Of a stretch of DNA of 43,048 bases, positions 3,824 to 39,984 are shown one piece after another. A model generated the notes under the pieces. That model was not told the origin of the DNA and did no database searches. It saw only the letters and a program-made list of their open reading frames with translations. Origin of the DNA: a virus. The position numbers and the translations under genes were made by a program. Numbering within the stretch: position 1 is the first letter of the stretch; the number at the start of each line of letters is the position of its first letter. The stretch is from positions 1 through 43,048 of the IMG/VR virus record IMGVR_UViG_3300034142_000018, one strand, 5' to 3'.

Positions 3824-3974
3824 GTGTGTCTCCAATAAGGCGCCTCAATATCGCATTGTTCTCGCGGAGGTTCCGGAGAACGCTTTCCCGTCGCCGATGT
3901 AGGGTTTTGGTAATGATATGCGACAGCGTAGGCCTCCATACTGACCTACGTTTGCGGAGTTGCCGCAGTTTCAT
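3807..3974 (-). CDS. Small Arg-rich protein coupled to the DNA polymerase gene
   Basis: 55 aa. Its ATG overlaps the polymerase stop as ATGA (3971-3974), and its 3' end overlaps the start of the DUF3987 gene in another frame by 17 bases, so it fills the gap between the two exactly. It is very basic (about a quarter Arg: LRQLRKRRS, HRRRES, LRRLI), lacks Cys and membrane segments, and could bind nucleic acid or the polymerase. I do not recognise a family. The stop-start overlap is the main evidence that it is real. Confidence 0.55.
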   Translation of the reverse strand: MKLRQLRKRRSVWRPTLSHIITKTLHRRRESVLRNLRENNAILRRLIGDTHGTTL

Positions 3975-6337
3975 TTACATTCGCCCCAAGACCTGTCTGA
4001 CATCTTGATCCCGATAGGAATGGTCAAGGGGTCAGAGTATGGCAAGGCGATTTCGGAAGCTGTGATAATAGCCTGGGCTAGGTGCGGCTTGGAAGTGGGG
4101 AACTGCCCGGCCAGGGAATCGTGGACCTGGAGGAGGATTTCGACCTCGGGCAGGGATTTGTCGATTTCTACATAGGCGCGATTGATGAGGCAGGCTACCG
4201 TGCTTTGAGGAATCCAGGCCGCGGCTTGGTTGAAAATCGTCCCCTCGATTCGGTCAAAGAAGTAGCAGCGATAGCCAAACACGTTCTGTACCATACGGCG
4301 CTTGAAGACCTGATCCTTGAGATCGTCCTGCCACTTTTTGATCCGTGGGAACTTTTCGAAATACCACCGCTGGGTTTTTTCGGCTTCATTGACAGACAGA
4401 CCAAGCCGCTCGGCAAGGCCCTTAGCCGTACCAAGGTAATTGGTTCCGTGGCAGAACGCCTTGAACAATTGACGGCGGGGGTCCTTCTTCGTGAGACTTG
4501 AATCATGATAGAATTCCTTCGCAACTTCGGTGTAGGGGTCCAGGCCTTCCTTGAGCATCCGTTTCATCTCCGGCTCATCAGCCTCCCAAACAACGATTCG
4601 TAAGTCTGCTGAACCGAGGTCAATGTCGAAAAAGGTATATCCTGGATCGGGTATAAAGAGACTGCGAACATTAGGAAGTTCGAGTCCGTTTGAGTCTCCA
4701 CCGTTAGGTATATTCTGCAGGTTGAGTCCGGTTCCAAACGCATTGGTTGAAGAGCTAAAACGGTATGTTTCCGTTCCAGCAATGTTGAAACTGCTTCGCA
4801 TTCGGCTATCAATGTCGAGAGGTGCGTTGACAAAAGTGCTGAGGAACACACCAAGAGACCGCAGCTCCTGTATTTTTCGGATAAGGGGTCGTAGGATAGG
4901 TTCGCGATCAGCGATGATAGAAAGTGCCTCATCATCGCAGGTGACAGTTTTTGTCTTTCGATTGAACTGTTGCTTTTGTCCGAATACTCCATAGAATAAC
5001 TCCTGCATCTGTTTCGGGGACTTGATGTTGACGGATTCCCCGAGGACGTCAAACATCCATTGCTCGCGCTTAGCAATCTCGTCCATAAGGGTCATGGCGA
5101 AAGCGGAACGCCGTGCGGTGTCGACACGAAGCCCACGATTCATGGTACGGAGGACGGGCCAGAACAGGGCTTGCTGGAAATCGTGAACAGGGCGGAGCTG
5201 CATCGCGTCAATTGTCCGCTGCTCAGTTTCATCGACTTCGTAAGTGATAACCGCGTCCTTGCAGTTATAGGACCAGAGTTGATCCTCGCCGGTTTTCGCG
5301 TCCCATTCTTTGCCTTCGTCCTTCCAGTATACGTGGTCCTCGCAGTACATGGAGGATAGGAAGTCAAGTCCCTTCTGCATGTTGGAAAAACAGACATGCT
5401 GGGAGAGCATGGTGTCGCGGACAAGATTGGGGAGGTAGTGGAGATGGCGCCAGAAGTACTGCGCGTCGTAGAGGAAGTTTTGGCCCAGGACGATGCAGTT
5501 GGGATGGGTGAGGATTTGGTAAAGCGCGAACATGAGGACGGTTTCTTCCTCCTCAGTCCAATAGCCTTCGAGCCGTTCGACGCACATCAGGGGGATGCAC
5601 AGGGCTTCCCGTTTTGACCACGCGAAACCGATGCAGGCAATGTGCCCTGCACGGGTTTCAATGTCGACTGCGAGCTTGAAGGGGGCAGCAGTAACGGCCT
5701 TGGCAATGACGGATAGATACTCCAGGACGGTAGAGAAATCTGGTCGGATTATGAAACGATAATCCACACATTTGAAATCTCGACTGTGCGAATGCCCCTT
5801 GGCCCGCCGCAGGTCCTGGAGGACGATCGGGCGCCATGCCCAATTGCGAAGGACGGCGGAGGGGGCGTAGGTCGGGATAACTTTGGGCTTGTAGTCCAGG
5901 GCTAGGTCGAGATCACACTCGAGCCGTGACCCACGCCATGACATAATGCCGGACTTGCCAGTCAGTGCCCACAGGCTGACGTTGCCGAAGGCGATGATGA
6001 CGTTAGGCCGGACCATCTCGATTTCCCGCTTGAGAAGTTCGAGCCCCTCCCACACGGGCGGCAGGCACATCTTGTCCCGAACGAGGCCGTGCTGGGGGGT
6101 AATGTCGCCCTTCCGCACGGGCATGAAGGAGGTCATGTCGTTACCGGGAGGTTTGACACGGACTACGTTGGTGATGAAGCACTGGTTACGGGAAATCCCG
6201 ATCTCGTTGAGCATGCGGGAAAGTTCCTGGCCCGCTGCGCCGACAAAAGGCTCACCACGGCGGACTTCCTCGTCACCTGGGGCTTCGCCGACGATCATGA
6301 TCCGGGCGGGTGCTGGGCCTGTAGGGGATATTTGCAT
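3971..6337 (-). CDS. DNA polymerase I (family A) with N-terminal UDG-like domain
   Basis: 788 aa. Residues 1-180 resemble family 4/5 uracil-DNA glycosylases: GEAPGDEEVRRGEPFVGAAG at 17-36. The usual Fe-S Cys of the KCRPP motif is replaced (VRVKPP, 59-64), and the normal HPS motif reads APS (158-160), so glycosylase activity is doubtful. The 3'-5' exonuclease starts at about 222 with VDIET. The polymerase domain has motif A DLGSADLR (Asp near 573), an O-helix region with RRQLFKAFCHGTNYLG, and motif C VHDS (Asp near 740), where the usual Glu of HDE is Ser. Both catalytic Asp are kept. This is the phage replicative polymerase. It is followed by the coupled 55-aa protein. Confidence 0.9.
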   Translation of the reverse strand: MQISPTGPAPARIMIVGEAPGDEEVRRGEPFVGAAGQELSRMLNEIGISRNQCFITNVVRVKPPGNDMTSFMPVRKGDITPQHGLVRDKMCLPPVWEGLELLKREIEMVRPNVIIAFGNVSLWALTGKSGIMSWRGSRLECDLDLALDYKPKVIPTYAPSAVLRNWAWRPIVLQDLRRAKGHSHSRDFKCVDYRFIIRPDFSTVLEYLSVIAKAVTAAPFKLAVDIETRAGHIACIGFAWSKREALCIPLMCVERLEGYWTEEEETVLMFALYQILTHPNCIVLGQNFLYDAQYFWRHLHYLPNLVRDTMLSQHVCFSNMQKGLDFLSSMYCEDHVYWKDEGKEWDAKTGEDQLWSYNCKDAVITYEVDETEQRTIDAMQLRPVHDFQQALFWPVLRTMNRGLRVDTARRSAFAMTLMDEIAKREQWMFDVLGESVNIKSPKQMQELFYGVFGQKQQFNRKTKTVTCDDEALSIIADREPILRPLIRKIQELRSLGVFLSTFVNAPLDIDSRMRSSFNIAGTETYRFSSSTNAFGTGLNLQNIPNGGDSNGLELPNVRSLFIPDPGYTFFDIDLGSADLRIVVWEADEPEMKRMLKEGLDPYTEVAKEFYHDSSLTKKDPRRQLFKAFCHGTNYLGTAKGLAERLGLSVNEAEKTQRWYFEKFPRIKKWQDDLKDQVFKRRMVQNVFGYRCYFFDRIEGTIFNQAAAWIPQSTVACLINRAYVEIDKSLPEVEILLQVHDSLAGQFPTSKPHLAQAIITASEIALPYSDPLTIPIGIKMSDRSWGECK

Positions 6338-7110: not shown

Positions 7111-7481
7111 TTTGGTAGTCTTTTGACTTTGTAAACTGTTAAGGTTTTGCCGACAGCGCGGAGGCCGAGGGCTTCGAGTGCACGGGGTCCTGGGTTGCTT
7201 TTTGTGCCGTTACGGAGTTCCCGGAGGTAGCTGTAACCTATCCGGGTTTCTCTGCTAGCTTCCCGCGCCCCTTCGTAGAACTGGATCAAGGCTTTAACGT
7301 GATCCTCAATGGTGGTGATGGCGTTGAGCTTTAACTCATAGGGCTCCGGCTTGAATATCGGTCCGGGCTTGTAGTTAGGGCCTCTAGGCCGGCCAACAGG
7401 TTTCTTCGCCGGGGGGTCTGGGTTCGGATAACTCCCGCCGATCCATACTGTTTTCAGATCAGATGAGCGAGGGTTGTTCAA
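7107..7481 (-). CDS. DNA-binding-type protein (AT-hook-like segment plus HTH-like C-terminus)
   Basis: About 124 aa. Start uncertain: the frame is open back to an ATG at 7682, but that would overlap the methyltransferase by 220 bp. TTG at 7481, with AAGG upstream, gives a 23-bp overlap. It has a basic Pro-rich hook (KKPVGRPRGPNYKPG) and then a helical region (ALIQFYEGAREASRETRIGYSYLRELRNGTKSNPGPRALE, shown at 7145-7290) typical of Cro-like HTH proteins. It is one of only a few candidates in the genome for a regulator that could bind the dyad sites. No biochemical role can be assigned. Confidence 0.6.
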   Translation of the reverse strand: MNNPRSSDLKTVWIGGSYPNPDPPAKKPVGRPRGPNYKPGPIFKPEPYELKLNAITTIEDHVKALIQFYEGAREASRETRIGYSYLRELRNGTKSNPGPRALEALGLRAVGKTLTVYKVKRLPK

Positions 7482-8841
7482 GGGCCTTGAGACGCTGGAT
7501 TCGCTTGAGCGACATTGCAAAGTATTCTGGATTAAGTTCAGTGCCGACTGCAGTGCATTTAAATCCGTGAGCGGCTTCGAAGAGTGGGCCGGTGCCACAG
7601 AATGGATCGTAGAGGCGGTCGCCGGGGCGGGCAGAGCGCTGGAGGAGGTTTTGGTAAACGGCGACGGGCTTTTGTGCTCCATGGGATAGGTTCTCGTCGG
7701 AGTTGGTGGATAGGACGTCTGGATAGATGTGGGTGACGGTTTTCTTGCCCTTGATCGCGTAGAGGATCATTTCGTACTGGCGGCGTGGGCCTTGGTCAGG
7801 GAGGGGAACGCGGCCGGAGTTTAGTTTGTAGTTGATTAGCGGGGTGCGGAAAACGTACCAGCCGGCGGCGCGCATGAGATCGCGAAGTTCGTGAAAATTG
7901 TCCGGGTCGCAAAAGACGTAAGCGTGGGCTTGGGGGTTGCATACTGCGTAGGACAGGGGAGCCCAGGCTGTCATCAGCTTTTTCCACGAAGCGTAGGAAT
8001 CATCGTAGTGGTGCTCGATGCCGGAGAGCTTGCCGGCGCCGTCGCCGAAATTGTCAGCCCCCATGCCGTAGGGAGGATCGGTGCAGATGACGTCGAACTT
8101 GGCGGTGGTTGGGCTATTGGCTAAGGTCTCCATGTAGGATAGGCAATCCATGTTTAGAAGGTGGTGGAGGTCAGCGTTGAACGTCGCACCAACGGTCTTG
8201 GCTAATTCGATGTTCTTTGTTTGCTCTTCCTGCCGCTTGAGGATCTTGAACGCTTCGTCGGCGGACTTGGCGTTGGCAATGGCAGGGTTGGACAGGTGGC
8301 GCGCGACGATGATCTCGCGGCGGGTGGTTTCTTGGTGAATGCCCTCGGAACTGCCACGGATTTCCTTGGCGGTGTCGGCGATAGTGTGGCCGGGGGCCGT
8401 GACTTGGGCAACCTCACCTGCGAGGAGAATCTGCTCAGACTTCGGCGGACGCTGCTTGACCCGGAGGTTATGCAGCCGTTCGACCGCTGCCGCGTGTTCC
8501 TGCCAGGATAGATCACGTCGCTTAAGGTTCTCATCCAGCTCCGCCTCTTCAATTTCCAGATCGGTCAAATCCCCGATGTTGACAAAGGGCACCATGCCGC
8601 CTTCGTAGAGCTGGCCGTTGTACTGAAATGATCCCCCGAGTTCGAAGATCTCGGAAATCGCCCGAAGCCGCCGTTCGCCAGCAACTAGCACCCAGCCAGT
8701 TCCCTCATAGCGCAGAACTGGGGCATGCATCAACCCGAGGTCTTCGATGGAGTTCTTCAACTCCTGCATGTGCTCAGGTGTGAATTCCTGGCGTTGTCGG
8801 TTGGGTTTGATGAGGATGTCAGAAAATAGGATTGTCGGCAT
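7459..8841 (-). CDS. ParB-like domain fused to DNA methyltransferase
   Basis: 460 aa from ATG 8841 (an in-frame upstream ATG at 8937 adds a low-complexity leader and lacks an SD). Residues 1-110 are a ParB/sulfiredoxin-like nuclease domain (IKPNRQR, VLVAGERRLRA-type motif). About 110-220 is helical linker. The C-terminal half is an N6/N4-type amino-methyltransferase: motif IV DPPY at 255-258 and motif I DPFCGTG at 412-418, so motif IV precedes motif I (beta-class order). It would transfer a methyl group from SAM to adenine or cytosine, perhaps to protect phage DNA from host restriction. No cognate restriction enzyme is seen. The ParB part may direct it to DNA. Confidence 0.85.
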   Translation of the reverse strand: MPTILFSDILIKPNRQRQEFTPEHMQELKNSIEDLGLMHAPVLRYEGTGWVLVAGERRLRAISEIFELGGSFQYNGQLYEGGMVPFVNIGDLTDLEIEEAELDENLKRRDLSWQEHAAAVERLHNLRVKQRPPKSEQILLAGEVAQVTAPGHTIADTAKEIRGSSEGIHQETTRREIIVARHLSNPAIANAKSADEAFKILKRQEEQTKNIELAKTVGATFNADLHHLLNMDCLSYMETLANSPTTAKFDVICTDPPYGMGADNFGDGAGKLSGIEHHYDDSYASWKKLMTAWAPLSYAVCNPQAHAYVFCDPDNFHELRDLMRAAGWYVFRTPLINYKLNSGRVPLPDQGPRRQYEMILYAIKGKKTVTHIYPDVLSTNSDENLSHGAQKPVAVYQNLLQRSARPGDRLYDPFCGTGPLFEAAHGFKCTAVGTELNPEYFAMSLKRIQRLKALEQPSLI

Positions 8842-9099
8842 GGGAAGTCCAAGTAAGAATGCCCAGCGGGCGCCGGGCGGGTGGTTTTTAGGTGTGGGGG
8901 ATAGGGCGTGCCGGGACGGAAACCGGGGGCCACGCATGGCGGCGTGCGGGGGTGGGTGTGGGTATGACCGGGTGGTTTAAATCGCCCATGGGGGCCGGGA
9001 TACATACACACATTTGTCACCTCGGGCAATAGCCTCGATCGTTTAGGGGGATGGCGCCGCTGGATAAGCCCCCAGCGGCCCGGGCAACACTGCGCGGAC
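8842..9099. other. Intergenic region upstream of the methyltransferase gene
   Basis: 258 bp with no convincing gene. On the minus strand it holds a GC hairpin (GCCGCTGG / CCAGCGGC, 9056-9079) downstream of the 9100-9408 gene, with no T-run. It also holds a single half of the dyad sequence (minus-strand TGTGTATGTATC, around 8999-9010) preceded by GTGACA. The second half is absent at the normal spacing, so this is at best a degenerate site. Confidence 0.5.
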
Positions 9100-18563: not shown

Positions 18564-19142
18564 TCAAACTGCCAGATCGTCCAGCTCACCTAACAACGCA
18601 TCGGTGTTGACCTTGCTACCCTTATTCGCCTTTTCCGATTCGATTTTCTCGATCGTGGGCTTGATCTTGGGGTTGTTGCGCAGGGCAACCTTTTCCGCGT
18701 GGGTCTTGCCGACCAGGAAGGTTTTGATCTGTTCCACGGTCTTGCCGTAGACTTCAACCAACGCCTTAACCAAAACCGAAGTCCCGGCCAACCCGTTCGT
18801 TTCCTTGCGCTGGGTCCAGTCGCCGTTATACAGCCGGTCGATCAGCTCATCAATCGCAATCACACAATCTTCCACGTCATCCAGACCGGCGATCTCGTCA
18901 CCCAGCTTTTGCTCGGCGCCGTGGGCAGCGAACTTCGCCATGAGGTTAGCTGGCACGGTGAACAGGCGGGTGGCGCCGTTGCGGAAGTCCAGGCGAACTT
19001 GCACTTGACCATCTTCCGTGATCGAAGCGGACTTGAGCAGCTTGCGCTTGCCGGCGAATTCCACGATATGGGGACGATCAGGCGTGCTGTCTTCCATTGT
19101 CACGGTTTCGATTTGGGGTTCTTGCTTTTGGGTAGTAGCCAT
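18564..19142 (-). CDS. Early protein, paralogue A
   Basis: 192 aa from ATG 19142 (GGAG eight bases upstream). The first ~55 residues are variable. Then come FRNGATRLF, AHGAEQKLGDEIAGL, IDRLYNGDWTQR, LVKALVEVYGKT, TFLVGK, LRNNPKIKPTIEKIESEKA and a tail VNTDALLGELDDLAV. The same blocks in the same order are found in the 21309-21833 product, so the two are diverged paralogues. It has its own strong promoter (19242-19269) and terminators. Abundant early protein likely; function unknown. I considered a nucleoid- or replication-associated role because both copies flank the origin-like element. Confidence 0.75.
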   Translation of the reverse strand: MATTQKQEPQIETVTMEDSTPDRPHIVEFAGKRKLLKSASITEDGQVQVRLDFRNGATRLFTVPANLMAKFAAHGAEQKLGDEIAGLDDVEDCVIAIDELIDRLYNGDWTQRKETNGLAGTSVLVKALVEVYGKTVEQIKTFLVGKTHAEKVALRNNPKIKPTIEKIESEKANKGSKVNTDALLGELDDLAV

Positions 19143-19241
19143 GGTTTTTCTCCAGATAGGCGTTGGCAGGCAATTGTGGGTTGATCGACGGTCCGCTAGG
19201 GGTGCTTGCCGGTATGCCCCAAACACGGCGTTGATGAATGG

Positions 19242-19678: not shown

Positions 19679-19986
19679 GATTCAAGTGCCTCTGTTGTTT
19701 GTGATTTCTTTGCCTTGGCCACTAACTCCACCACCAACATCCCGTCCCTGTGCGAAATCTCGGCGACGATTCGGAATTCATCTTCAATCTGGCCATGCGG
19801 GTGCAGGGGAAATTTCTTGAGCGATGCCCGGTATTGGCGGGATAATCGTTGTCTGTCCAGTGCCTTTCCCCGATCTGTGGGCAGAAACAGGCCGATTTCC
19901 GCCCGAGGTTTGTTCCGCAACTCACCAAAAACCTTGGTAAACCATGCCGGGAAGGCGTTTGGGTCCCGCAAGCTCCCCGAGGCCAT
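19654..19986 (-). CDS. Hypothetical early protein
   Basis: 110 aa. It begins MASGSLRDPNAFPAWFTKVFG, then RNKPRAEIGLFLPTDRGKAL, a basic middle (LSRQYRASLKKFPLHPHG) and a beta-type end (EFRIVAEISHRDGMLVVELVA). The start overlaps the upstream stop as TAATG at 19984-19988. No motif indicates a role. Confidence 0.6.
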   Translation of the reverse strand: MASGSLRDPNAFPAWFTKVFGELRNKPRAEIGLFLPTDRGKALDRQRLSRQYRASLKKFPLHPHGQIEDEFRIVAEISHRDGMLVVELVAKAKKSQTTEALESWYSNQVF

Positions 19987-20423
19987 TACGCAGGCTCCCG
20001 TGTATAATACGGGTTTGCCGGTCGGAGGGGCGTGCCAGGACCGGCAGTAGGTGATCCTTCCAACAACAGTAACATACGCGCACTTGACTCTTCAATCTCC
20101 CGATCCTCTGCGGTTTTCGCCGCCCATTGCCCAACCCCGGCTTCCCCGCCCAGGGTTTCCATGATCGCCTGCATACCTTCATACTTCAATTTCCCACGGA
20201 CAAGTAGCACATTTTCCTCAACTGATAACGAAACCGAGTCAATCGCTAGGATCAATTCGTCCGTCGGGGCCAGCTTCGCACGCATTTTCCGGGCAAATGC
20301 GTATGCTTGAAACCGCGTATTTTCCGCAACACTTTTATCCGCACATACGATTTGAAGATCTTCCGCGACTGCTTTACGAAACATTGCGGAGAAAACTCGT
20401 TCTACTTTTGTGTAATCGGTCAT
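19986..20423 (-). CDS. Hypothetical early protein next to the origin-like element
   Basis: 145 aa from ATG 20423 (GGAG upstream; the in-frame extension to 20513 is Gly/Pro low-complexity and rejected). Helical and charged: TKVERVFSAMFRKAVAEDLQ, FARKMRAKLAPTDEL, a hydrophobic stretch (LILAIDSVSLSVEENVLLV), then Ala/Glu-rich helix and a Pro-rich tail. First gene downstream of the origin-like region. A perfect minus-strand TTGACA lies at 20567-20572, but the -10 is unclear. No family recognised; an initiator role cannot be claimed. Confidence 0.6.
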   Translation of the reverse strand: MTDYTKVERVFSAMFRKAVAEDLQIVCADKSVAENTRFQAYAFARKMRAKLAPTDELILAIDSVSLSVEENVLLVRGKLKYEGMQAIMETLGGEAGVGQWAAKTAEDREIEESSARMLLLLEGSPTAGPGTPLRPANPYYTREPA

Positions 20424-20584
20424 CCAGTACTCCAAAATTAATAATGACAATGGCATGTGGGCAGTAATGGTGGACGGGTATAAGCCAAACCCCCCGGTAA
20501 AACCCACCACCAAAGCCGGTCAGCCGACCCCCATGCCTATATTAATTGTGCGTGTTTCCCGGGGGCTGTCAATAACTCATTTGC

Positions 20585-20900
20585 AAGATTTACCGCCATT
20601 TCCCCCCATTTACCCGTATTTCAATCCGTGTGCCCGTATTTACCGGGAATATGCCCGTATTTACCCGGTTCGTCATTGAGCAACAGACCTACCCCCCTTC
20701 CTCTTCCTTGTGTGAGGTCTTAAATAAAAAAAAAATCGTAAACGGTACCAATATCCCAATGGGCTCAATCACATGAGGGAGGGCAAGGGGGGTAGGTCTG
20801 CATCTCAATGACCAATCGGGGAACTTCCATCACATTCCGGATGAAATATCACCAACACCGGGTAAATGATGAAAATATGATAAATCCGGGTAAATAGGCG
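20585..20900. other. Origin-like element: inverted arms, A-tract core and phased repeats
   Basis: Core: inverted arms 20672-20699 and 20785-20812 (9 + 15 matched bases around a 4-nt mismatch; AGACCTACCCCCCTT is the longer block), enclosing 85 bp with a run of ten A (20726-20735) and AT-rich flank. Left flank: ATTT blocks at 20588, 20598, 20608, 20618, 20638 and 20659, four of them reading ATTTACC, and CCCGTATTT three times at 20-21 bp spacing. Right flank: AAAT blocks in the opposite sense at 20844, 20864, 20873, 20882 and 20892, two reading GGTAAAT. This symmetry and phasing fit an iteron-type replication origin or a partition/packaging site. No gene lies here. Confidence 0.6.
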
Positions 20901-21037
20901 ATGGAATGGGCCGGGGATACGTGGGTGGCGAGCTGGTCATGAAAACCGCGCCACGGGCCGGGAAACGGGGTTGGCGGGGCATTGGGAAACGGGTGGTTTG
21001 CCCGGGAAACGCCCGAGCTGCCCGCCCCCGCCCGATA

Positions 21038-21067
21038 TGTGTATGTTATGGATTCATAACCCGCACA
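21038..21067. promoter_or_regulatory. Dyad operator, site 4
   Basis: Left arm TGTGTATGTTAT, spacer 6 nt, right arm ATAACCCGCACA. It lies between the terminator at 21087-21113 and the origin-like element. No TTGAC-type -35 is visible on either strand, so this copy may act as an operator, not a promoter. Confidence 0.75.
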
Positions 21068-21086
21068 TACACCGCCCCCACGAGCG

Positions 21087-21113
21087 AAAACACCACCGGG
21101 TTAGGGTGGTGTT
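21087..21113 (-). terminator. Intrinsic terminator after the paralogue B unit
   Basis: Perfect 9-bp stem AACACCACC / GGTGGTGTT with a 7-nt loop. The minus strand continues TTTTCGC. It separates the paralogue B transcript from dyad 4 and the origin-like region. Confidence 0.75.
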
Positions 21114-21137
21114 GCGGGCTGGTTGGTGGTCAGTATC

Positions 21138-37731: not shown

Positions 37732-39984
37732 ATGCCACGCAATATCACTGTCACCTTCGGCGATGGCTCCCAGCATGTGTATCAAAATGCCCCGGACAGC
37801 GCCACGCCGGAATCCGTAACCGCCCGCGCGCAACAAGAATTTAACAAACCTGTGACAAAGCTGGATGGGGGAAAAGAGTCGAGTTTCCTTGACACTGCAA
37901 TCCAGAAGGCGAAGTTGTTCGGCAGTGATGTTGTCAAGGGCGTAGCGGCACTGCCAGCACTAGCACTTGACCTAGCCTCGATTGACCCCACGACAGGCAA
38001 GCCACCTACGAAGTTCGGTGGAGTCTCCTCGACTCTGCAAAACTCCATGGCAACGCCGGCAACTACTGCGGACAAATGGCAATCCGCGGTTACCCAAGGG
38101 ATTGCAGGGGGGCTGGCAGGACCTGGTGGAGTAGCCGCGCCGATTCGTGCTGGATTGACAGGCGCTGGCGGGGGCGCCGGTTCTGAGATCGGGGGGCGGC
38201 TGACGAACGACAGCACTCTCGGCCGACTTGCCGGGGCTTTGCTTGGCGGGGTAGGGACTGCCGGTGTCGCGGGGAAGTTGGCTAACGCCTCCCCGCAGAT
38301 CACCACCCTTGCCCACGAGGCTATGGAGGGCCTAACCCCTGACATGCTGAAAAAAGCGCAGACGTTTCAGAGCATGTCTAACGGCAAAGGGGTTGAGATG
38401 GACCTTGCGCAGGCGTTGGAAGGGGTGGGAGCGCCAGCTGGGAATTTGACTACCATCCGCAACGTGCTGGCGAACAACCGTTCGGGCAATGCCGTGCAGG
38501 AAACTCTACGGCAACAACCAGGGCAGTTGGAGGTGCTGGCCGATACGACAGTCGGGGGATTGCCGGGGCAGATTCGCCAGGCAGATGTGGCGGCGAATAA
38601 TATGCAAGCTGCCGCAACAGGACGATTGCAACAAGCTAAAACCGCTCGCAGTGACCTTTGGGCGGATACTGTTGAGACTGTCGGCACAGCGCAAAAACAA
38701 CAGGCTCGAGACTCCCTGACCAAAGCTATGCTTGGGAAAGACGCGGCAGATCTCGGCGTCAAGGGAGCCGTTACTGATATGCAGTCTCGGCTGGCGAATG
38801 CACTGAGTGGTAAAGGGGAGGCGGCGGATTTCTTGGAAGCTGTCAAACCTGTTTCGGCGGCAAATGCAACTGCGCGGGAAGCGGCAGAAGGTGTACGGAT
38901 AGCAAAAACGGATCTGCGGAATGCGAAATCCGTGCCCCCGGAAACTGTATTATCTGCAGCCTCCGACCTCCAGCGACTCATTGCTGGCAGTCCCAACACC
39001 GGCAAAGCTACGGCACTAGCACGGCTGCAGAAATCCTTGTTTGATCCGGCGACAGAAGCCCCAATCACCGACCCCAAAAAGTTGAACGAAATCTTGACCA
39101 GTGAGGCGAACAAACTCAAGTCGATTGACCTGGCTTCGAGTGGGGTTGATGCGGGGACGGCGAAGTGGATTGGAAGCCAAATCCAAGGTTTGCGGGATAA
39201 GTTTGGAGAATCCTTTGCCCCGATTCGGGAGGCAAATAAGCAATACGCTCGGGTAACGAAGGAAGTGATCGATCCGCTGAAACAGAGTGGAGTAGGGCAG
39301 TTTGCCACTCCCCGTGGCTTTAAACCCGACGTGGCGGCATCGCAAGCGAAACTCGTCGCCCTGTTCAACAAAGGGGAAGACCCGATGGCGAAGGGAAGCA
39401 ATATCCGCACTCTGGCGGCGGAGCTGAAAAAGGTTGATCCCGAAGCGTTTCCTGACGCGTTTAAGACTTATCTCAGTGGGAAGCTCGGCGAATCCTTTGC
39501 CCCAACGATTGGGGGCGCGCAGTTGGCTTCCCCCGACGCAGCGGAGAAGGTGTTCTCTGCCTTGTTCTCTAATCGGAATCAGTGGAACGGCCTGCGTCAA
39601 GGAGCCTCGGCCGCCGCGGAATCTTTCGACCTACCCCCAGCGCAAGTTGTCAAGGGACTGGAGAGCTTTGCCCAGATCACGAAGGCGCTCCGCTCCCGGC
39701 CGGCGACTGTCGGTGGCCTGCAACGCGAGGAAGTGTTCCAACTCAGTGGGAAATCCTACGGCGCTGACGCCCTTCGTGTCTTCGGTTTCCTGCCCTTTGA
39801 GCAGGTAGCCCGGCGGATCGAGGACGCTACCATGGCAAAGACCCTCCAGCAGTTCGACAAGATCTTGACAACCCCCGAGGGCGCCGCTAAGCTGGCCGAA
39901 CTTGGCAAAGTGCCGCCTATGAGCGGAAAGGCACTGGCTATCTTTTCCACCATCGGCGCAGCGACTGCGACGGCTGACCAATAA
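37732..39984 (+). CDS. Large internal virion/ejection protein
   Basis: 750 aa. It begins MPRNITVTFGDGSQHVYQNA, a beta-hairpin head seen in several podoviral injection proteins. An Ala/Gly-rich hydrophobic stretch follows (GIAGGLAGPGGVAAPIRAGL, GGVGTAGVAGKLANA) that may insert into membranes. Long charged helices make up the rest (KTARSDLWADTVETVGTAQK). Probably ejected to help the DNA cross the envelope. The same gene's C-terminal 152 codons open the window in a slightly different allele. Confidence 0.75.
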   Translation: MPRNITVTFGDGSQHVYQNAPDSATPESVTARAQQEFNKPVTKLDGGKESSFLDTAIQKAKLFGSDVVKGVAALPALALDLASIDPTTGKPPTKFGGVSSTLQNSMATPATTADKWQSAVTQGIAGGLAGPGGVAAPIRAGLTGAGGGAGSEIGGRLTNDSTLGRLAGALLGGVGTAGVAGKLANASPQITTLAHEAMEGLTPDMLKKAQTFQSMSNGKGVEMDLAQALEGVGAPAGNLTTIRNVLANNRSGNAVQETLRQQPGQLEVLADTTVGGLPGQIRQADVAANNMQAAATGRLQQAKTARSDLWADTVETVGTAQKQQARDSLTKAMLGKDAADLGVKGAVTDMQSRLANALSGKGEAADFLEAVKPVSAANATAREAAEGVRIAKTDLRNAKSVPPETVLSAASDLQRLIAGSPNTGKATALARLQKSLFDPATEAPITDPKKLNEILTSEANKLKSIDLASSGVDAGTAKWIGSQIQGLRDKFGESFAPIREANKQYARVTKEVIDPLKQSGVGQFATPRGFKPDVAASQAKLVALFNKGEDPMAKGSNIRTLAAELKKVDPEAFPDAFKTYLSGKLGESFAPTIGGAQLASPDAAEKVFSALFSNRNQWNGLRQGASAAAESFDLPPAQVVKGLESFAQITKALRSRPATVGGLQREEVFQLSGKSYGADALRVFGFLPFEQVARRIEDATMAKTLQQFDKILTTPEGAAKLAELGKVPPMSGKALAIFSTIGAATATADQ

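Follow-up and report, generated by a model that had tools for sequence, protein, structure and literature searches.

The window analysed here is the whole of IMG/VR record IMGVR_UViG_3300034142_000018 (43,048 nucleotides), a circular phage genome with a unit of 39,523 bp whose record ends overlap by about 3.5 kb. Our subject is a mirror-symmetric element of short, helically phased repeats around a central T tract, which occupies a gene-free interval among the early genes and is probably an origin of replication. The features at the locus, with the element first and its neighbours after it, are as follows.

20424..21137, gene-free interval containing the element, 714 bp, the largest of the early arm in the map of open reading frames (ORFs; the next is 328 bp)
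20637..20848, whole dyad, a 212-bp imperfect palindrome (BLAST against its own reverse complement, E 1.4e-14, the best in the window)
20672..20699, plus strand, left inner arm, 28 bp, sequence GTCATTGAGCAACAGACCTACCCCCCTT, with a CCTACCCCCCTT box (25 of 28 positions paired)
20785..20812, minus strand, right inner arm, 28 bp, complementary to the left arm at 25 of 28
20726..20735, minus strand, T10 tract on the early-sense strand (A10 on the plus strand), the presumed unwinding element
20579..20665, plus strand, left outer array of seven ATTT blocks 9-21 bp apart, four of them ATTTACC
20844..20895, minus strand, right outer array of opposite sense, five AAAT blocks (ATTT on the minus strand), two of them GGTAAAT
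20545..20572, minus strand, promoter-like TTGACA-16 nt-CACAAT, just past the ATTT array and directed toward the gene at 19986-20423
19986..20423, minus strand, conserved early protein of 145 amino acids (aa), directly after the promoter
21086..21112, minus strand, terminator-like hairpin read from the sequence (8-bp stem, four T), closing the upstream gene and kept in locus L004
21138..21308, minus strand, small ORF of 56 aa between paralogue 1 and the element, with a homologous stretch in L004
21309..21833, minus strand, paralogue 1, the upstream bracket
18564..19226, minus strand, paralogue 2, the downstream bracket

The initial annotation had described a 28-bp inverted pair around an AT-rich core with a ten-A run, flanked by ATTT blocks on the left and oppositely oriented AAAT blocks on the right at about 10-bp intervals, all in the largest gene-free stretch of the early arm and bracketed by two paralogous genes. 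Each of these features is present, with the qualification that neither paralogue is the immediate neighbour of the element. The inverted pair is unique, as no second pair of arms with at least 23 of 28 matches within 180 nt occurs elsewhere in the 39.5-kb unit, and it forms part of the larger dyad, which is 64% identical to its own reverse complement; the best palindrome in 20 Markov-simulated genomes reached an E value of only 6.5e-4. The left blocks start at 20579, 20588, 20598, 20608, 20618, 20638, and 20659 (steps of 9, 10, 10, 10, 20, and 21 bp) and the right blocks at 20844, 20864, 20873, 20882, and 20892 (steps of 20, 9, 9, and 10 bp), so that the outer arrays carry the mirror layout on beyond the dyad. 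Half of the 12 copies of ATTTACC on the two strands of the window fall in the element.

With a hairpin upstream and a promoter downstream, the element seems to lie untranscribed between transcription units, an arrangement that favours a role as DNA over one as RNA. The hairpin is under the threshold of a standard terminator scan and was not listed by it. No described RNA family matched at its gathering score, and weak matches to miRNA precursors reflect the long hairpin only.

Geometry across relatives

A search with the paralogue family returned 61 loci, and 27 genomes or contigs were scanned over their whole length for palindromes, blind to position. The same design is found in 28 further phages. 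In about 27 of the 61 loci, and in phage record MW202489, a run of T7-12 (A in L041 and L066) centres a long imperfect palindrome, mostly of 120-430 bp; its distance upstream from paralogue 2 is about 1.1-2.4 kb, or 3-4 kb in a few distant members. The element was the best dyad of the blind scan in 16 of the 27, with E values from 1e-6 to 1e-47 and the tract no more than about 35 bp from the centre, and it was recovered weakly in Vibrio splendidus phage VS-ABTNL-3 (40665-40796, E 1e-4). Among the irregular cases, one genome (G016) has a palindrome without a T-run, another (G007) has its element split by the contig ends, and a third (G018) combines a T11 run and C-rich and G-rich flanks with a weaker dyad.

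Long palindromes alone are unspecific, as they also occur in Gordonia phage Emalyn and a Desulfofustis phage. The palindrome of Emalyn (L139 24753-24964; 212 bp, E 1e-10) lies in a divergent intergenic region and is possibly a similar kind of site. In G011 (L109 4984-5357), inverted TTAAC-type arrays with a spacing of about 10 bp lie upstream of paralogue 1; this relative lacks the T-tract element. The hypothetical protein UOF77867.1 of MW202489 (L080 38502-38783) is probably a spurious gene call, because it overlaps the palindrome and T-tract.

The sequence of the element, by comparison, drifts quickly. One close relative (39,525 bp) matches the region at 78% identity, and when viral contigs were scanned for exact copies of a conserved 21-mer, only that relative matched; no phage or plasmid record was found to resemble the region at the DNA level, and a scan of a genome collection for hosts or prophages carrying paralogue 2 gave no match. 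Among the 406 pairs formed by 29 elements, only 4 can be aligned for the greater part of the element, and short pieces are shared by a few others. What is retained is the geometry. Autocorrelation over 28 elements gives summed z scores of 8.8 (left) and 5.7 (right) at lag 11, 5.2 and 4.3 at lag 10, and 6.2 on the right at lag 22, whereas the coding outer flanks show period 3 without a peak at lag 11. The central 20 bp average 87% AT in genomes that are mostly 55-62% GC, and left arms are C-rich where right arms are G-rich. In comparable pairs, double changes that keep complementarity number 19 against 5.7 expected, 14 against 3.6, and 12 against 3.7, where the chance expectation is one in three and the counts share ancestry and so are not independent; in one example pair, 19 were kept and 11 broken. 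As pairing is preserved above chance while so few elements align, sequence comparison shows that symmetry is under selection; the feature is real and conserved family-wide. The comparison with relatives that the initial annotation had proposed as a check thus speaks strongly in favour of the element, with arms, phasing, and T-tract kept as the sequence changes. Two further regularities were sought and set aside: positions of dyad matches carry no clear 10-11 signal, unlike the sequence autocorrelation, and an inner ACCC...GGGT box occurs on both sides in just 9 of 29 elements by simple pattern and is not claimed as universal.

Position and polarity are held as well. The T-run is on the early-sense strand in nearly all elements, the distance from the element to the DNA polymerase gene, downstream on the T strand, is 11.7-17.4 kb in 16 of 16 genomes (VS-ABTNL-3 not counted), and the element is directly 3' of paralogue 1 wherever the order can be checked. 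A TTGAC[AT] motif is found downstream on the T strand of 13 of 26 elements, mostly 129-200 nt from the tract, against 1, 0, and 0 in the three control orientations.

Neighbouring genes and genome setting

The minus-strand early arm of the window (2.6-22.2 kb) encodes a DUF3987 primase, a family A DNA polymerase fused to a uracil-DNA-glycosylase (UDG) domain, a ParB_N-methyltransferase, a Sak4-like protein, a PD-(D/E)XK nuclease, a MazG-like pyrophosphatase, and a Dda-like helicase, and the plus-strand late arm encodes terminase, portal, major head protein, and lysis genes. The arms point away from each other near 22.3 kb and meet near 2.59 kb. Two fusions deserve mention in their own right. 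A single ORF at 3971-6337 on the minus strand carries PF03167 and PF00476, that is, an N-terminal UDG superfamily domain on a family A polymerase, and a match over nearly its whole length was found again in most relatives; at 7459-8937 on the minus strand, an N6/N4 DNA methyltransferase is fused to a ParB N-terminal domain. The overlapping record ends differ at 22 positions between 1-142 and 39524-39665 and at only 3 more in the rest of the 3.5-kb overlap, and these differences are strain variants within the assembly.

The two paralogues share 32% identity (E 5e-16), and the pair is present in 22 of 22 relatives tested. Neither has a Pfam or informative PHROG match; a model shows an N-domain of five strands plus a helix, with weak Pur-alpha-like matches. 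The 145-aa protein, marked across the group by the motif RLRFxLYN...NPYYTR, occurs in 13 of 22 relatives, all 13 of which have the element or a palindrome. In its AF2 model (pLDDT 75.6), the structural elements follow one another as helix-strand-helix-helix-strand-strand-helix, an order that recalls a winged helix. A sequence search of the PDB and a fold search with this protein and paralogue 2 gave nothing confident: the weak matches, which for the 145-aa protein include winged-helix regulators and DCoH and for paralogue 2 include Pur-alpha, were all within the noise level of the tool. The 145-aa protein is a candidate DNA-binding partner, no more.

The origin reading and its alternatives

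We put the probability at roughly 60% that the element is an iteron-type origin, in which inverted, phased initiator sites surround a T-tract unwinding element and are coupled to the early promoter. A phage initiator would bind the short sites once per turn on both sides and in opposite senses; it would then wrap or pair the two arms, and stress would open the central T7-12 tract. The set of DUF3987 primase, family A polymerase, and Dda-like helicase could be loaded at the open tract, from which two forks would leave. The promoter at the early-gene edge of the array may couple early transcription to origin firing, either by transcriptional activation or through an initiator that represses or activates the promoter. 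Origin activity, the identity of the initiator, and opening of the tract are what we infer here from the observed anatomy and its conservation. In favour of this reading, both arms of the window are transcribed away from the element, and their point of convergence lies 46%/54% round the circle.

The element has the array of short sites, the helix-phased repeats, and the adjacent AT-rich candidate unwinding element of an iteron-type theta origin. It departs from the narrow plasmid type, a single direct array on one side of the DNA unwinding element (DUE), in that its arrays are inverted on both sides, and from a lambdoid ori inside an O-like gene in that it lies in a gene-free interval. Since initiator and origin activity are putative and the narrow plasmid definition does not hold, we do not place it in a described origin family; as judged from sequence, it would be filed as a variant of the iteron-origin kind outside any such family. 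A site for resolution of hairpin telomeres by a protelomerase was rejected, as the centre is a homopolymer T tract that is not self-complementary and no perfect central palindrome is present.

Several results weigh against an origin. In the window, the maximum of the cumulative GC skew falls about 2.4 kb from the element on its early side and the minimum 13.6 kb away on the opposite side, which inverts the usual polarity of a bacterial-type origin, and the extrema found within 2.5 kb of the element in 10 of 17 genomes are of mixed sign (seven maxima, three minima). DnaA boxes are at chance level, with none near the element. No initiator was found by sequence or fold, the 145-aa protein being without a confident match, and this protein went undetected in three element-bearing genomes (G019-G021) and in G018. 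Five genomes with the same polymerase family and paralogues (G011, G012, G014, G015, and G017) have no element between the paralogues. The skew itself neither supports nor refutes origin function, because transcription units diverge close by and gene orientation is a confounder. The skew check suggested by the initial annotation gave no clear-cut support, and of its origin-like element with helically phased flanks the phased mirror element is established and the origin is the best available interpretation.

The main rival, which we regard as unlikely, is a large operator or enhancer of the early promoter, whose phased sites would be occupied by a regulator from the phage or its host; by looping or coating the DNA, this regulator would switch the TTGACA promoter, with no role in replication. 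The oriented occurrence of TTGAC[AT] suits it, as do the end of the early-gene-side array where the promoter starts and the upstream hairpin that insulates the unit. However, the far array mirrors the near one over 100-200 bp, yet TTGAC[AT] lies beyond it in only 1 of 26 elements; repression needs no fixed central T tract; and a clear TTGAC[AT] is absent from half of the elements. An origin accounts for more of the anatomy than the other explanations do, since promoter control needs neither the promoter-distal array nor the tract.

It is improbable that the arms instead extrude as a hairpin or cruciform that offers the T-rich loop of one strand either for priming, in the manner of single-strand initiation sites, or for strand-specific nicking. 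The single strand folds at -43.4 kcal/mol against -25.2 for shuffles (z -5.2), and the T-tract is always near the loop and in nearly all cases on the early-sense strand, but loops are long, arms are just 57-71% identical over most of the 120-430 bp, and the 11-bp phasing points to sites on one face of duplex DNA. Still less probable is a centromere-like site with parC-like phased repeats, or a packaging (pac) site. The 11-bp repeats of plasmid R1 parC, the ParB_N-methyltransferase fusion, and a terminase gene that starts about 2.6 kb from the element would fit, although no partition ATPase or ParR-like protein was seen among the proteins scanned, the arrays are inverted rather than direct, and the element lies among early genes, across the divergence from the terminase.

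Beyond the iteron-type origin itself, we tentatively consider the relatives to represent a geometry-defined viral replicator class, with mirror arrays at one-turn phase around a T-tract, up to about 430 bp, in which the recognition sequence would turn over so quickly that almost every phage has a code of its own and selection would hold symmetry, phase, tract, place, and polarity. Its initiator family would be new and might include the 19986-20423 protein.

Significance and known systems

For most tailed phages the origin is unknown, and GC skew is the usual basis for guessing it. A large group of uncultured phages here gains a precisely located, testable origin candidate, which can be found by a simple palindrome scan without knowledge of its sequence. 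The element was not described in the literature searched, which was open-access only.

In viral core origins of the SV40 type, a palindrome of inverted initiator sites adjoins an A/T tract and an early promoter. The likeness in layout is a lead only; the virus and its replication proteins are unrelated, and no T-antigen-like helicase was seen here. The parC site of plasmid R1 has 11-bp repeats in two direct sets around a promoter; the similar repeat spacing is likewise a lead only. The sets are inverted here, and no ParM or ParR was found.

The textbook iteron origin consists of phased iterons with an AT-rich unwinding element next to them (PMC5043065). Like ori-lambda, the element combines repeated sites in the early region, an AT-rich unwinding element, and a link to a promoter, and the lambda repeats are themselves dyad-symmetric (PMC5043065). 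It differs in that lambda has four 18-bp iterons inside gene O (by annotation) on one side of the AT-rich region, whereas here the site is intergenic, repeats are about one turn apart, mirror arrays lie on both sides, and no O-like gene was found. The iteron plasmids P1, F, R6K, and RK2 share the helix-phased repeats beside a DUE (PMC5043065), but the arrays described here face each other in opposite senses across the tract, and no Rep could be detected. Fast turnover of sites under a fixed geometry offers a natural experiment on the co-evolution of initiator and site. A possible parallel, by analogy, is the Vibrio cholerae satellite PLE, whose replication origins change when an origin-directed phage nuclease attacks them (PMC8263062).
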